Source: Bacteroidota bacterium
Lineage (GTDB): Bacteria; Bacteroidota; Ignavibacteria; Ignavibacteriales; Melioribacteraceae
Direction of reading: 5' to 3'
Length of the DNA: 58,708 nucleotides
NCBI GenBank assembly: GCA_018829205.1
Contig: JAHJUE010000026.1
Span: forward strand, 1 to 58,708
Shown here piece by piece: positions 19,050-43,486 of the stretch. The notes under the pieces were generated by a model that was given only the letters and a program-made list of their open reading frames with translations, ran no database searches and was not told where the DNA came from. Position 1 is the first letter of the stretch; every line of letters starts with the position of its first letter. The translations under genes and the position numbers were made by a program.

Positions 19050-20690
19050 ATGAGAGTCAATGTTGTAATGCCCAAAATGGGTGAAAGTATAAATGAAGGT
19101 ACATTGATTAAATGGCACAAAAAGAAAGGTGATCTAGTTCAAAAAGATGAAATAATTTTTGAAATCAGCACCGATAAAGTTGATACTGAAATTCCTAGTC
19201 CCGAAGCAGGTAAACTTATTGAAATTAAAGTGTTTGAACAGGAAACCGTAGAAGTTGATACCGTTGTTGCAATTATTGACACAAACGGCGAAGCCGCTGT
19301 TGATGAAAAACAAAATGAAAAGAAAAATAATACCGAACGTGTAACTGAGGAATCTAACGAAAAAGCTTCCACTACTCAGATTGGCGGAGAGTTGATCGAT
19401 ATTCCAATGCCTAAAATGGGCGAGTCTGTAATGGAAGGCACAATTATTAAATGGCATAAAAAAGTCGGCGATAAAGTAGGCAGGGATGAAATTATTTTTG
19501 ATATAAGCACAGATAAAGTTGATACCGAAGTGCCTTCGCCGATTGAAGGAACATTGTCGGAAATTCTTTTTAAAGAAGGCGAAACAGTTGATGTCGGTAT
19601 TGTCGTGGCCAAAATTTCCACTAGCGGCGGAATTGTAAAACCAAAAGAAGAAATCAAAATAAAGAATGCAGAAGAAATTAAACAGGAAGCATTAAAGGAA
19701 GAACCTGTCGCACAGGTTGGACATAGTGAAAAAATTAACGCTTCTTCATCAAATAGATTTTATTCACCGCTTGTGATGAATATTGCAAGTAAGGAAAATG
19801 TTTCGGCAAATGAACTTGAAACGATAAACGGTACGGGTGTTAACGGGAGAGTAACGAAAAACGATATTCTAAAATATATTGAAGACAGAAAAAGCGGCAA
19901 GGCTCCTGCTGCCGCTCCTCAAAAAATGTCATCATACCGGATGCCGGAACCTAAAGAAGGTCAACCGGTTGTTAAAAAAGGCGAGGGAGTAGAAATTATC
20001 CCCATGGATAATATCCGTAAAAGAATTATGTATCATATGACCAACAGCCGTGATACTTCTGTTCATGTTACCGCAGTGCTGGAAGTTGATATGACAAGAA
20101 TTCATAATTTTATCAATTCAAAAAGAGATGAATATTTTGAAAAAAGCGGGGTAAAATTAACCTATATGCCGTTTATCTCTCATGCTGTTATTAAAGGATT
20201 AAAAGAATATCCTTTATTAAACTCTTCAATTGACGGTGATAACATAGTAGTTAAAAAATATATTAATATTGGGATTGCCGTAGCTGTAGAACCAAATGGT
20301 TTAATTGTCCCAAATATTAAAAACGCTGATGAAAAAAATATTTTGGGGCTTTCTAAAGCCATAACCGAAATTGGAAAAAAAGCCCGTGGAAAAGGACTGA
20401 TACCCGACGATATTATGGACGGCACCTTTACTATTACTAATTACGGTGTTTTCGGTTCTTTATTCGGAACTCCGATTATAAATCAGCCTGAAGTAGGAAT
20501 ATTGGGTGTTGGCGCCGTGGTTAAAAAGCCTGTTGTAATTACTGTCGACGAAATCGACACAATAGCGGTTAAGCCTATGATGTATTTATCGCTTAGCCAT
20601 GATCATAGATTAGTTGACGGAATGCTCGGCGGTAAATTCTTAAAATCAATTAAAGACAGTTTGGAAAATTTTGATACGAGTATAGTTTAA
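19050..20690 (+). CDS. Dihydrolipoamide acyltransferase (E2) with two lipoyl domains
   Basis: 546 residues: two lipoyl domains (STDKVDTEIPSP, Lys43; STDKVDTEVPSP, Lys156), a charged linker, an E3-binding domain (about 233-275, ETINGTGVNGRVTKNDILKY), a short Ala/Pro hinge, and a catalytic domain ending SHDHRLVDGMLGG (His519, Asp523). It moves the acyl group to CoA and forms the core of the complex. GGGAGA about 8 nt upstream is a strong ribosome site. The substrate (pyruvate or branched chain) follows that of the adjacent E1. Confidence 0.93.
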   Translation: MRVNVVMPKMGESINEGTLIKWHKKKGDLVQKDEIIFEISTDKVDTEIPSPEAGKLIEIKVFEQETVEVDTVVAIIDTNGEAAVDEKQNEKKNNTERVTEESNEKASTTQIGGELIDIPMPKMGESVMEGTIIKWHKKVGDKVGRDEIIFDISTDKVDTEVPSPIEGTLSEILFKEGETVDVGIVVAKISTSGGIVKPKEEIKIKNAEEIKQEALKEEPVAQVGHSEKINASSSNRFYSPLVMNIASKENVSANELETINGTGVNGRVTKNDILKYIEDRKSGKAPAAAPQKMSSYRMPEPKEGQPVVKKGEGVEIIPMDNIRKRIMYHMTNSRDTSVHVTAVLEVDMTRIHNFINSKRDEYFEKSGVKLTYMPFISHAVIKGLKEYPLLNSSIDGDNIVVKKYINIGIAVAVEPNGLIVPNIKNADEKNILGLSKAITEIGKKARGKGLIPDDIMDGTFTITNYGVFGSLFGTPIINQPEVGILGVGAVVKKPVVITVDEIDTIAVKPMMYLSLSHDHRLVDGMLGGKFLKSIKDSLENFDTSIV

Positions 20691-39442: not shown

Positions 39443-39476
39443 TTTTTATAATGCCATTACGGCAAATATTTCTTTT

Positions 39477-39603
39477 TGTCATTCCGGCAATCTTTTATGC
39501 CGGAATCTTCAATACTTAAAATTTTTAGATTCCCGCAAACTACATGCGGGAATGACAAATCCACTCAAAATCTTTCAGATTCCCGCGAACTACAAACGGG
39601 AAT
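39477..39603. repeat. Cluster of three REP-like palindromes upstream of the GIY-YIG gene
   Basis: ATTCCGGC (39481-39488)/GCCGGAAT (39499-39506); ATTCCCGCA (39529-39537)/TGCGGGAAT (39545-39553); ATTCCCG (39579-39585)/CGGGAAT (39597-39603). The first two repeat the doublet at 38064-38135. Confidence 0.8.
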
Positions 39604-39608
39604 GCAAA

Positions 39609-40175
39609 TTACTCGCCTTTTTCTTTCTTTTCTGCCGCTTCTTTTGCTTTAGCTGCAGCCGCGGCTGCTTTTTCTGCTTCTTTTTGCGCCTGCATTTTTT
39701 CGAAGTTTGCTTTCTTTTCTTCTGCTTCGGAGTTTGTTAATGTTCCGAATTTGTATAATAAATTTTCACGCTCAAATTCCGAAAATTCATAAACATCTGT
39801 CATATAAATACATTCTGTCGGACAAGGATATACGCAAAGAGAACAATAGCAGCATTTCGCGATATCGATATTAAACTTTGTAACCCAAAGAGCTTTCTTT
39901 TTACCGTTAGAAGTTGTTCCCAAATCTTCCGTAGGAAGTGATTTTACGGTTTCAATTTCTATACAATTAACCGGACAAGCGCGCGCGCATTGGTCGCATC
40001 CGATACAGTCATCCATATTTACATACAGTCTGTTTCTTGCTCTTTCAGGGAGCGGCAATTTTACATCGGGATATTGAATGGTAACAGAGGGAACAAAAAG
40101 ATGTTTAAAAGTTATCTTCATTCCGACTACAACAGTCCAAAGCGCGTCCCATGTATTTCTTAAGTATGCTTTCAT
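39609..40175 (-). CDS. nuoI: NADH-quinone oxidoreductase subunit I
   Basis: 188 residues. Two [4Fe-4S] motifs CIGCDQCARACP and CCYCSLCVYPCP. It is extended beyond the usual end by an Ala/Lys/Glu-rich tail of about 35 residues (KEAEKAAAAAAKAKEAAEKK), probably a charged helix. It passes electrons toward NuoB. Confidence 0.95.
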   Translation of the reverse strand: MKAYLRNTWDALWTVVVGMKITFKHLFVPSVTIQYPDVKLPLPERARNRLYVNMDDCIGCDQCARACPVNCIEIETVKSLPTEDLGTTSNGKKKALWVTKFNIDIAKCCYCSLCVYPCPTECIYMTDVYEFSEFERENLLYKFGTLTNSEAEEKKANFEKMQAQKEAEKAAAAAAKAKEAAEKKEKGE

Positions 40176-40191
40176 ATAAATTTTTCGAATT

Positions 40192-41262
40192 CTATAATAA
40201 TGTGATAATACCGACTATAATTAAATTCAGTATTGCATAAGGAATTAAATATTTCCAGCAAACTGTCATAAGCTGATCTACTCTTAAACGCGGTAAAGTC
40301 CATCTTAACCACATTTGAACTAAAACAAAAAATACGCCTTTGGCCGTGAACCAGAAAAATTGCTCAAACGGTACAAGCCATGGTACGTCAATTACATTTC
40401 CAAAATAACCGAAAGGTGATTGATATCCTCCTAAAAATATTGCAACGGCAATTGCCGAGACTGCGAACATATTAGCGTATTCGGCAAGGAAAAACATGGC
40501 GAATTTCATTCCGGAATATTCAGTGTGAAATCCGGATACTAATTCCGATTCGGCTTCGGGAATATCAAACGGGGTTCTGTTAACTTCGGCTAATGAACTT
40601 ATATAAAAAATTATAAATGCTACGAACATAAAAGGAATCAATAATATATGCTGAAATCCTTCTCCTGCTCCTCCGAATAAATTCCAATTCCAGAAATAAG
40701 CAGTCTGCATTTCGCTCATTTTATGTAAGCTAAGTGTACCGGTCATCATAACAACAGTTAATATTACAATAGCAGTAGGTATTTCATAACTTACAATCTG
40801 CGCAACAGAACGCATAGCGCCAAGCAACGAGTATTTATTATTTGAAGCCCAGCCTGCCATTAAAATTGCGGCAACTACTAAACTTGAAATAGCTAGTATA
40901 TAAAATAAACCTAGATCAATATTTGAGCCTATAAACATTCCCGAAAAGGGGATTGCTGCAAATGCCGCGTAACTGCCGATAAAGATTAAATATGGGGCAA
41001 GATTGAACAATTTTTTATCAGCTGCGTCCGGTACAATATCTTCTTTTTGTATAAGCTTAAGAATGTCGGCAACAGTCTGCAATATACCATAATAACCTGT
41101 TCTCATTGGGCCAAGACGGTCTTGCATAAAAGCTGAAACCTTTCTTTCCAAATAAACAGCTATTAAAGCAAAGGGAAGTATAAATACAAATAACGGAATA
41201 GCCGCAAGCACAATCATTGCGACAATTTCATTCCCGAATAAATTTAATAATATTTCGTACAT
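40192..41262 (-). CDS. nuoH: NADH-quinone oxidoreductase subunit H
   Basis: 356 residues, about eight transmembrane helices. AVYLERKVSAFMQDRLGPMR and RTPFDIPEAESELVSGFHTE are the quinone-site signatures. Its start overlaps the nuoD stop by 1 nt. Confidence 0.97.
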   Translation of the reverse strand: MYEILLNLFGNEIVAMIVLAAIPLFVFILPFALIAVYLERKVSAFMQDRLGPMRTGYYGILQTVADILKLIQKEDIVPDAADKKLFNLAPYLIFIGSYAAFAAIPFSGMFIGSNIDLGLFYILAISSLVVAAILMAGWASNNKYSLLGAMRSVAQIVSYEIPTAIVILTVVMMTGTLSLHKMSEMQTAYFWNWNLFGGAGEGFQHILLIPFMFVAFIIFYISSLAEVNRTPFDIPEAESELVSGFHTEYSGMKFAMFFLAEYANMFAVSAIAVAIFLGGYQSPFGYFGNVIDVPWLVPFEQFFWFTAKGVFFVLVQMWLRWTLPRLRVDQLMTVCWKYLIPYAILNLIIVGIITLL

Positions 41263-42377
41263 TATCTGTCTATTTCTCCAAGTACAATGTCAAGGCTTCC
41301 TAAAATTGCTATAACGTCTGCAACCAAATGGCCTTTACACAATTCATTAAAAATTGTCATGTTTACAAATGAAGGAGCGCGGACTTTAACTCTAAACGGA
41401 TTTACCGAACCGTCGCTTATAATAAAGTATCCGAGTTCGCCTTTTGGATTTTCCACCCTTGTATAAATTGTTCCTTTAGGAGGTTTAATTCTTTTTGGAA
41501 TAGCGGATTGAACATCGCCTTCTGGAATATTATCAATTGCCTGTTCAATAATTCTAACGCTTTGTTCCATTTCCTGAACTCTTACATAATATCTGTCCCA
41601 GCAGTCGCCGACTGCGCCGTAAGTTCCTTTACCAACCGGAATTTCAAAATCAAATCTGTCGTATATCGAATAAGGATCTTCTTTTCTTACATCGAAAGCA
41701 ATTCCGCTTGCGCGCAGACTCGGGCCTGTAATACCGTAATTTATTGCCGTATCAAGGGGAAGTGTTCCGACATTAGCCGTTCTTTCAATAAAAATTTTGT
41801 TGTATGAAAGCAGGTTGTTTAACTCAACAATATTCGGTTTAAAACTTTCTAAAAACTCTTTTGTTAGCCTTACAAAATCGGGATGAATATCATGCGATAA
41901 ACCGCCGACCCACATATAATTATATAATAACCGTGCGCCGCATGTCATTTCAAACAGGCTTAATATTTTTTCTCTGTCTCTAAAACAATATAGGAAGGGA
42001 GTAAACGCGCCTATATCGACTCCGTATGTTCCAAGCGCGACAAGATGAGAAGCGATTCTTTGAAGTTCGCCCATTATAACTCTTATATAATCAACTCTTT
42101 CGGGGACTTCGATGCCTAGCAATTTTTCAACTGCAACAACGTATCCGAAATTGTTATACATCGACGCCAGATAATCCATTCTATCAGTGTAAGGAATAAC
42201 TTGAGGATATGTCATTGCTTCGCAATGTTTTTCAAAACATCTATGAAGATAACCCAGGTGAGGTCTAACGCTTATAATTAATTCACCGTCAAGTTCTAAT
42301 TCAAGTCGCAGCACACCGTGAGTAGAAGGGTGCTGTGGACCCATGTTTAATACCATTTCTTCAGTTTTCAGTGCCAT
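41262..42377 (-). CDS. nuoD: NADH-quinone oxidoreductase subunit D
   Basis: 371 residues, the 49-kDa type without a NuoC fusion. NMGPQHPSTHGVLRLELELD and the C-terminal DIVLGEIDR are intact. It contributes the quinone-binding site. Upstream of the ATG the minus strand has only a run of A residues and then repeat sequence, so no clear ribosome site is left. Confidence 0.96.
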   Translation of the reverse strand: MALKTEEMVLNMGPQHPSTHGVLRLELELDGELIISVRPHLGYLHRCFEKHCEAMTYPQVIPYTDRMDYLASMYNNFGYVVAVEKLLGIEVPERVDYIRVIMGELQRIASHLVALGTYGVDIGAFTPFLYCFRDREKILSLFEMTCGARLLYNYMWVGGLSHDIHPDFVRLTKEFLESFKPNIVELNNLLSYNKIFIERTANVGTLPLDTAINYGITGPSLRASGIAFDVRKEDPYSIYDRFDFEIPVGKGTYGAVGDCWDRYYVRVQEMEQSVRIIEQAIDNIPEGDVQSAIPKRIKPPKGTIYTRVENPKGELGYFIISDGSVNPFRVKVRAPSFVNMTIFNELCKGHLVADVIAILGSLDIVLGEIDR

Positions 42378-42385
42378 TTTTTTTT

Positions 42386-42417
42386 AGATTTGAGATATGA
42401 GATTTGAGACGCAAGAT
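42386..42417. repeat. Left inverted copy of the 14-nt repeat bounding the S23 gene
   Basis: Two units, GATTTGAGATATGA (42387-42400) and GATTTGAGACGCAA (42401-42414). The 32 nt 42386-42417 are complementary at 28 positions to 42790-42821 on the other side of the gene. Confidence 0.75.
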
Positions 42418-42418
42418 T

Positions 42419-42781
42419 TTAATTTGAAATTAATTTTGCCTTAAACCCATAAATCAATTTTTGTATTTCCGATAATTGTTTTAAAACTTTATTTAATTTT
42501 TCTTCTTCTATAAATTCTAAATCAAACGATAAATATAATTGTGTTTCTAATTCAAATGCCGATCCGTTTGCCATATCTAAAAATCTAATAAAATCTTTAT
42601 CGGAACCTCTTCCGGCACCTTCAGCAATATTAGAAGCAATCGAAACAGCAGCTCGTTTAATTTGCGAGCTTAAACCAAATTTTTCTTCATTAGGAAAAAT
42701 TTCAGTTAATAAATAAATATCTTTAACTAAAATTCTTGTTTTCTGCCAGACGATCAACTCTTTGAAATTATGCATATCCAA
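42419..42781 (-). CDS. Four-helix-bundle protein (23S rRNA intervening-sequence, S23 type)
   Basis: 120 residues. Typical start HNFKELIVWQKTRILVKDIY, then KFGLSSQIKRAAVSIASNIA and EGAGRGSDKDFIRFLDMANG. The family was first noted in intervening sequences of 23S rRNA and also occurs as free-standing genes; its biochemical role is unknown. It lies between nuoC and nuoD in operon orientation. Its stop and start codons lie within a few bases of inverted repeat blocks, so it looks like a discrete inserted unit. Met1 or Met3 may be the start. Confidence 0.93.
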   Translation of the reverse strand: MDMHNFKELIVWQKTRILVKDIYLLTEIFPNEEKFGLSSQIKRAAVSIASNIAEGAGRGSDKDFIRFLDMANGSAFELETQLYLSFDLEFIEEEKLNKVLKQLSEIQKLIYGFKAKLISN

Positions 42782-42782
42782 A

Positions 42783-42957
42783 GTCTCACATCTTGTGTCT
42801 CAAATCTTGTGTCTCAAATCTTGTGTCTCAAATCTTGTGTCTCAAATCTTGTGTCTCAAATCTCGTGTCTCAAATCTTGTGTCTCAAATCTTGTGTCTCA
42901 AATCTTGTGTCTCAAATCTCGTGTCTCAAATCTCGTGTCTCAAATCTCACGTCTAAT
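42783..42957. repeat. Tandem array of a 14-nt unit (TCTTGTGTCTCAAA)
   Basis: Eleven full units from 42791 to 42944 plus degenerate partial units at both ends. Variation is limited to TCTTGTG/TCTCGTG at one position. The last partial unit contains the nuoC stop codon (42953-42955). There are no unique spacers, so it is not a CRISPR array. Confidence 0.95.
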
Positions 42958-43486
42958 AAGGCACCTTCATCCCCTGGTAAAACTCCGGATTCTTATAATC
43001 TTTTCTTAAAGGATATCCTTGCCAATCGTAGGGCATTAAAATTCTAATTAAGTCAGGATGATTTAAAAATTTGAATCCGTACATATCATAAGCTTCGCGT
43101 TCGTGCCAGTCGGCGCATTTCCAAACAGATTCAACCGATTCAACTTCCGGGTTTTCTCTTGGCGCAGATACTTTAAGAGTAATTTTATGTTTAATGCTTG
43201 TAGAATGAAGATGATAATAAACCGATAATGTGCCGCCGGTTATAATTTCAGTGCCGTCTTCATCTTTAACTTTTTCGCCGTTAGCATCATCGACACCTGA
43301 TAAATTCATTAAGCTGTCAAATAATAATTGGTCATTAGTTCTCAAAAAACCGCAAATTTTATGAATTTTTAACGGATCAGTATTAATAATAACTTCAGTG
43401 GGCATATCGGTTATTAATTCAAACGCTGTTCCGGGGAATTCATTTTTTAGAATTTCAAAAATTTCTTCGGGAGTTTTCATCTGCAT
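42953..43486 (-). CDS. nuoC: NADH-quinone oxidoreductase subunit C
   Basis: 177 residues. The 30-kDa signature CADWHEREAYDMYGFKFLNH and RILMPYDWQGYPLRKDY are clear. Met3 (43480) is an equally possible start. The gene ends inside the 14-nt repeat array. Confidence 0.95.
   Translation of the reverse strand: MQMKTPEEIFEILKNEFPGTAFELITDMPTEVIINTDPLKIHKICGFLRTNDQLLFDSLMNLSGVDDANGEKVKDEDGTEIITGGTLSVYYHLHSTSIKHKITLKVSAPRENPEVESVESVWKCADWHEREAYDMYGFKFLNHPDLIRILMPYDWQGYPLRKDYKNPEFYQGMKVPY

Follow-up and report, generated by a model that had tools for sequence, protein, structure and literature searches.

An S23 gene enclosed by complementary heptad arrays between nuoC and nuoD, and intervening-sequence-like arrangements of S23 genes outside rRNA

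Annotations of S23 proteins as rRNA intervening-sequence or four-helix-bundle proteins are found across a very large number of bacteria. The definition of an rRNA intervening sequence (IVS) includes excision by RNase III without religation. The IVS in the 23S rRNA of Coxiella burnetii is an S23-family gene in the loop of a 28-bp stem made by complementary ends, suspected to be mobile, and RNase III cutting is given as known for 23S rRNA intervening sequences (PMC4990558). The element described here, located between nuoC and nuoD in a window of 58,708 nt (the whole stretch of DNA that was analysed), resembles the Coxiella IVS in being an S23 gene inside a stem loop of complementary ends. It differs in that the S23 elements studied here lie in protein operons, have stop-anchored heptad arrays as their ends, and are only predicted to be cut by RNase III (PMC4990558).

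Heptad repeats have also been described in other settings. Stem P6b of the cyanobacterial tRNA-Leu intron is built of complementary 7-nt repeats, the motif class of which can switch while pairing is kept (PMC4476775), the GGGAATC heptad repeats of Xanthomonas form 70 and 75 inverted pairs (PMC4692102), and the TAACTGA repeats of Beggiatoaceae lie upstream of start codons (PMC4679880). The arms of the S23 elements share with P6b the complementary 7-nt repeats, switchable with pairing kept, but P6b is part of a group I intron, comes without an S23 gene and has two motif classes, against the many units found here (PMC4476775). Like S23 arms, GGGAATC repeats are intergenic heptads, often in inverted pairs; unlike them, they consist of one unit genome-wide, and the text contains none of the terms 23S, intervening or four helix, hence no S23 link (PMC4692102). 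The TAACTGA repeats are likewise 7-nt intergenic direct repeats, but with one fixed unit, direct and not inverted, and with no S23 link in the portion available (PMC4679880). A single-unit heptad family of this kind (STRR type, GGGAATC, TAACTGA) was rejected as an explanation, since the S23 loci of the own genome differ in unit, though AGATTTG recurs at several places. We found no description of S23 genes linked with stop-anchored heptad arms in operons in the searchable part of open-access full texts; an earlier account elsewhere is possible.

Anatomy of the nuoC-nuoD element

The genes and arms of the locus all lie on the minus strand. nuoC (42953..43486, from the ORF list) ends in GMKVPY, the same C-terminus as in relatives with an empty junction, and its stop codon TAG (42953-42955) serves as the opening unit for a repeat array that forms the 5' arm in S23 sense (42783..42954; 7-bp units AG-N5, delimited by Tandem Repeats Finder and the sequence). 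The S23 gene follows at 42419..42775, then the 3' arm, complementary to the 5' array (42386..42419), which ends 8 nt before the ATG of the downstream neighbour nuoD (41262..42377, ORF list). A sequence-only reading of the window had paired 42386-42417 with 42790-42821 at 28 of 32 positions, a figure that we reproduced. The complementary arms are real, but 42790-42821 is just the inner end of a larger array on the nuoC side (42783-42947), which Tandem Repeats Finder resolves into 11.8 copies of a 14-bp (2 x 7) period with 97% matches, and in which AGATTTG alternates on the S23 strand with AGACACA, AGACACG or near variants. The 3' arm on the nuoD side, 34 nt long, can pair with this array in about ten registers; in the best of them it pairs at 91% over 34 nt, once with 42844-42877 and once with 42900-42933. 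The complementarity score of the element's own flanks is 53, as compared with 16-28 when matched to the 3' flanks of four orthologous insertions. RNA folding of the junction gives -126 kcal/mol as minimum energy; shuffled versions give -100.7 (sd 6), a z of -4.2.

The S23 gene that had been placed at 42419-42781 is present, though its start is probably ATG 42775 (118 aa) and not TTG 42781 (120 aa), because orthologues at the same site start with ATGCA. Its product matches PF05635 (E 3.3e-41, 140.2 bits, cut-off 33.8) and TIGR02436 (131.8, cut-off 24), and relatives with solved structures exist (2gsc, 2rld). Avd of diversity-generating retroelements is a remote homologue, with profile scores below the curated limits (bAvd PF22296, 30.7 of 40 bits; DivGenRetAVD, 36.3 of 80 bits), and identity with Avd was rejected on the score of 36.3 bits. 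S23 is under purifying selection: dN/dS is 0.06-0.29 in six of eight S23 pairs, with dS saturated in the other two, and two pairs include a broken copy. The own genome holds 11 PF05635 genes, and at least one was found in 36 of the 38 genomes searched (own included). Among the listed ORFs of at least 80 aa in the element, S23 is the sole family match and no transposase of its own was present; an 84-aa ORF opposite to the S23 strand is translated repeat.

As in an IVS, complementary ends close the insert as a stem; unlike an IVS, which by definition lies within an rRNA gene, the element lies between nuoC and nuoD. A 23S rRNA gene was not found in the own assembly (Rfam RF02541). The earlier remark that nuoD has no clear ribosome site agrees with what we see by eye, but carries little weight, as many empty nuoC-nuoD junctions, as short as TGATATG or TGATG, are likewise without a visible one (also by eye).

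Elsewhere in the same operon, a solo GIY-YIG gene (PF01541; 39143-39442, minus strand) forms a second insertion between nuoI and nuoJ. It has complementary flanks (score 40; flanking stretch 39475-39609), and a 50-nt direct repeat lies beside it at 39514-39609.

Flanks of S23 genes outside rRNA

The sequence-only reading had proposed an IVS-like layout, in which the flanks of the S23 gene pair as a stem and the gene occupies the loop, and a search for other S23 genes with flanking inverted repeats. In two sets of S23 genes, we scored local complementarity between the 220 nt upstream and the 220 nt downstream of the gene. The relatives' set (own and related genomes) was reduced from 113 S23 ORFs to 100, each with a profile score of 55 or more and with 220 nt of sequence on either side, after removal of 5 contained loci. 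The wide set was built from 80 named loci, the best 80 of 421, with 79 S23 genes kept and 4 dropped for short flanks, and covers Bacteroidota, Clostridia, Treponema, candidate phyla, Omnitrophota, Planctomycetes, Chloroflexi and others. Control genes exclude those near S23. Own flanks had a mean score of 32.46 against 18.41 after permutation in the relatives (n=100), and of 30.48 against 17.72 in the wide set (n=79, from the best 80 of 421 loci), with none of 10000 permutations as high in either case; flanks paired across loci had means of 18.3 and 17.6, respectively. In the relatives, 72 of the 100 genes exceeded the cross-locus 95th percentile and 47 the 99th, and for 40 the own partner flank was the best of all 100. 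The corresponding counts in the wide set were 49/79 and 27/79, whereas only 6 of 449 control genes from the same loci exceeded the 99th percentile. Scores not above the 95th percentile were seen for 28/100 genes in the relatives and 30/79 in the wide set. At most of the 11 S23 loci of the own genome, short-period arrays upstream mirror the downstream flank, with a unit that differs per locus. An Rfam scan of the 80 wide loci (best 80 of 421) returned no rRNA, just 5 tRNAs and 1 tmRNA. Among S23 genes outside rRNA, a large share show this layout, and the IVS-like architecture is supported and generalised beyond the nuo locus.

The pooled self-match of both flanks peaks at lags of 7, 14 and 21 (0.36, 0.34-0.35 and 0.33), with other lags at about 0.27-0.31. 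A strong 7-bp array was present in at least one 130-nt flank of 62/100 S23 genes in the relatives and 66/79 in the wide set, as compared with 65/505 control genes and 16/3060 random 130-nt windows of the own genome; the nonzero control counts mean that such heptad arrays also exist without S23. A stricter array scan of random DNA was set aside as too strict, with 4 of the 11 own S23 loci found.

The 5' arrays tend to start at the upstream stop codon and to be in register with it, the stop acting as first unit (T-AG-N5). For S23 genes with a co-directional upstream neighbour ending in TAG (n=58), the share with AG at a given distance from the stop is 53% at +8, 55% at +15, 48% at +22 and 40% at +29, against 12, 12, 16 and 14% for control TAG genes (n=88); one unit upstream of the stop (-6) it is 26% against 6%. 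The periodic AG registers are weaker where the upstream gene ends in TGA or TAA. In an independent count on 71 arrays passing periodicity and AG limits, the array phase fell exactly on the AG of the stop in 21 of 35 TAG cases, with 5 expected under even phases. TAG stops are also enriched before S23 (30/85 against 115/574 in controls; 24/63 against 69/334). A unit consensus obtained by rotation to AG was rejected as evidence, because rotation favours AG by construction, so that the AG claim rests solely on the stop-register test. The register could in part be a by-product, if the first in-frame stop comes from an array that carries a stop in every unit. The array should then be present one unit upstream of the stop (-6) about two thirds as often as at +8; as our estimate is about 0.4 after background and the nuoC C-terminus is kept, it explains a part at most. 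Beyond what the sequence-only reading contained, the arms are heptad arrays, with a unit differing per locus, anchored at the upstream stop codon.

Shared sites and arm turnover among relatives

Thirty nuoD loci were read, 29 of them with nuoC present. A full S23 element was found at the nuoC-nuoD junction in five genomes (G000, which is the own assembly, G007, G009, G010 and G036), a divergent S23 protein in G027 (profile E 3e-7) and clear S23 relics in G019 and G004. Empty sites, which the earlier reading had suggested looking for, are frequent: 21 of the 29 readable junctions are without the element, one of them (G016) with doubtful remains. The end residues of nuoC are the same in occupied and empty genomes, showing that the insertion left nuoC unaltered; its stop is TAG at six of eight occupied or relic sites, and TAA in 10, TGA in 7 and TAG in 4 of the rest. 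The five nuo S23 proteins group together (99/94) against those of a second site, and the fork of nuo S23 proteins (88/93) includes one fragment from G011, with unsettled bootstrap. Because G036 belongs to another family, the simplest reading is one old insertion with later losses, that is, a nuo S23 copy that predates the split of two families, with repeated loss or decay since.

Relatives carrying the S23 gene at this site without inverted repeats, which would have spoken against the proposed architecture, were not seen among the five full elements, all of which have complementary arms of their own, with scores of 53, 39, 28, 33 and 32, and the own arms are the best match in four of the five species. 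The elements of G007, G010 and G036 have a common unit and cross-match with scores up to 34, while in G000 and G009 both arms have changed. The two nuo arms have changed together between species. At a second common site, located after an isocitrate/isopropylmalate dehydrogenase-like gene (icd-like; named by eye), own arms are best in one of four species; the unit is common to two species there, and G023 scores only 20. At a third common site own arms are best in two of two.

One post-stop-codon intergenic site holds different inserts in two species, an S23 element in one (L160 9740-10300) and, in the other, a decayed GIY-YIG gene identified by eye, with its own mirrored flanks (L131 5938-6313).

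Candidate explanations for the arms

The reading that we favour, with moderate confidence and from sequence comparison, is that the nuo insert belongs to a widespread class of IVS-like inserted elements with an RNA hairpin. Such an element is an S23 gene in a hairpin loop, with 7-bp repeat arrays as arms, at the junction of two co-directional genes. The 5' array starts at the upstream stop codon, with the AG of the unit restoring the stop (T+AG, TG+AG or TA+AG), and the 3' array ends a little ahead of the next gene's start. Once transcribed with the operon, the arms would pair as a long stem, looping out the S23 message and bringing the host genes near each other, and this stem would probably be a target of double-strand ribonuclease, by analogy with rRNA intervening sequences. 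The arms are not conserved ends; they have their own unit at each locus, and both turn over together, for which slippage and copying between arms at the DNA level would be the simplest route. Our data show the anatomy, the orientation, the stop-codon register, the joint arm turnover at the nuo site, the age of the nuo copy and purifying selection on S23; hairpin function in RNA, ribonuclease cutting, the way in which arms stay alike and the origin of new copies are inferred.

Orientation and placement bear on this reading. Between co-directional neighbours, S23 is on the same strand in 139 of 145 cases and opposite in 6 (80:1 in the relatives, 59:5 in the wide set), with 2 further genes that have an S23 neighbour and 26 that have unlike-strand neighbours or a single matching neighbour (mixed-strand classes 4, 5, 7, 4). 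Random insertion into operons should give equal numbers in the two orientations, and control genes show 99:11 (relatives) and 29:12 (wide). Of the clear arms, 41/59 have their start between -10 and +15 nt from the upstream stop, and in 35/58 the distance from the arm's end to an in-frame ATG of the following gene is 0-30 nt (the first ATG after the arm was taken, which favours small values). The stem thus tends to fill all of the sequence between the stop codon and the next start. That the elements lie in sense orientation and flush with the gap speaks for a role in the transcript, or for being tolerated by it.

The same two features count against the best of the rivals, namely that the arms have no RNA role and are a DNA by-product, in which heptads grow by slippage and stay complementary through template switching between inverted copies, with S23 as a passenger or a DNA-acting protein; the strand bias could also be explained if S23 needs the operon promoter. 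Transcript-level selection on a stem predicts more G.U than A.C mismatches. Stem mismatches numbered 105 G.U to 114 A.C overall (p 0.59; 74:64 in the relatives, 31:50 in the wide set), with no excess of G.U, so that selection on an RNA stem is not detected. Since G.U and A.C are equal and the arms of the nuo copies in G007 and G010 still pair beside broken S23 frames, coupled turnover at the DNA level accounts for the sequences no less well than selection on RNA does. The by-product reading also gains from hairpins that lack the gene. The sequence-only reading had named repeats that flank unrelated genes without S23 as a refutation. The AGATTTG repeats are indeed not exclusive to S23: they also occur without it elsewhere in the own genome, and two of these occurrences are gene-less hairpins, one on contig 14 near 20155-20300 and one on contig 6 at 73485-73570 (loci L112 5152-5303 and L110 4486-4568), the one on contig 6 starting at the TAG stop of a coaD-like gene (named by eye). 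The sequence TGAGATTTGAGA is found at 15 places in the own genome, 2 of them in the nuo element and the rest at five further loci without a nearby PF05635 match, one of these loci being a lone match. The gene-less hairpins may be element remnants or independent arrays. On balance, we favour the RNA hairpin and regard the by-product reading as unlikely.

A transposon or MITE, with the arms as terminal inverted repeats used by a transposase in trans, is an improbable alternative. It would account for the dispersed copies (11 in the own genome) and for presence and absence at homologous sites. It would also fit locus L141 (G017 contig 40), where three S23 copies, 88-94% identical, lie within about 7.5 kb, in a region rich in short repeats, and copies 1 and 2 match over 550 nt, arm sequence included, the sole recent copying seen. 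Against it, the element has no other gene, and arms differ per locus, own flanks matching far better than those of other loci, with the recent L141 copies and their common arms as the exception. A clean target duplication was not seen at the one same-genus site compared: G026 has there about 230 nt of other sequence instead of the element, with the intergenic sequence too different for a duplication to be read, and in the reverse comparison the homologous site was not found. That S23 is instead a normal member of the operon, serving complex I, next to an unrelated minisatellite, would agree with purifying selection on S23 in general and its long retention at the nuo site, but is already disfavoured and very improbable, given the many nuo junctions without S23, the presence of the family at many unrelated junctions and a flank complementarity far beyond chance.

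Returning to the IVS-like element, we tentatively put forward a joint reading, possible but rather doubtful as a whole. S23 elements may be a mobile class with the stop codons of operon junctions as targets; they would use their own AG to restore the stop and, lacking fixed ends, make new arms at every site. The S23 protein may recognise the shape of a heptad hairpin (RNA or single-stranded DNA), not its sequence, and help copying; rRNA intervening sequences could then be the special case in rRNA, and several other solo families (GxxExxY, GIY-YIG) may occupy this niche by means of different repeats.

Should the pattern of stop-anchored heptad hairpins hold, most S23 proteins outside rRNA would be cargo carried by an element of this kind. 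This would join two old puzzles, the function of S23 and the commonness of heptads among bacterial repeats. It would predict co-transcription, cuts on both arms, recognition of shape and not sequence by S23, and coupled arm turnover across strains. For annotation, it would be a warning that small genes found between operon genes can be insertions with no functional tie to the operon.

Other solo genes were scored in the same way. GxxExxY genes (PF13366; L112 8317-8742, L108, L153 1468-1836, L262-L291) also have complementary flanks, with 12/29 above the cross-locus 95th percentile and 2/29 above the 99th (1 locus dropped), and their flanking repeats look different, being CACAGAG-like. For GIY-YIG genes, 6/24 exceeded the 95th percentile and 2/24 the 99th (13 dropped). 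GIY-YIG genes also occur as tandem arrays of five near-identical matches each, with steps of 450 bp in G034 (contig 1, 120132-122135) and 315 bp in G036 (contig 1, 2945594-2947066).
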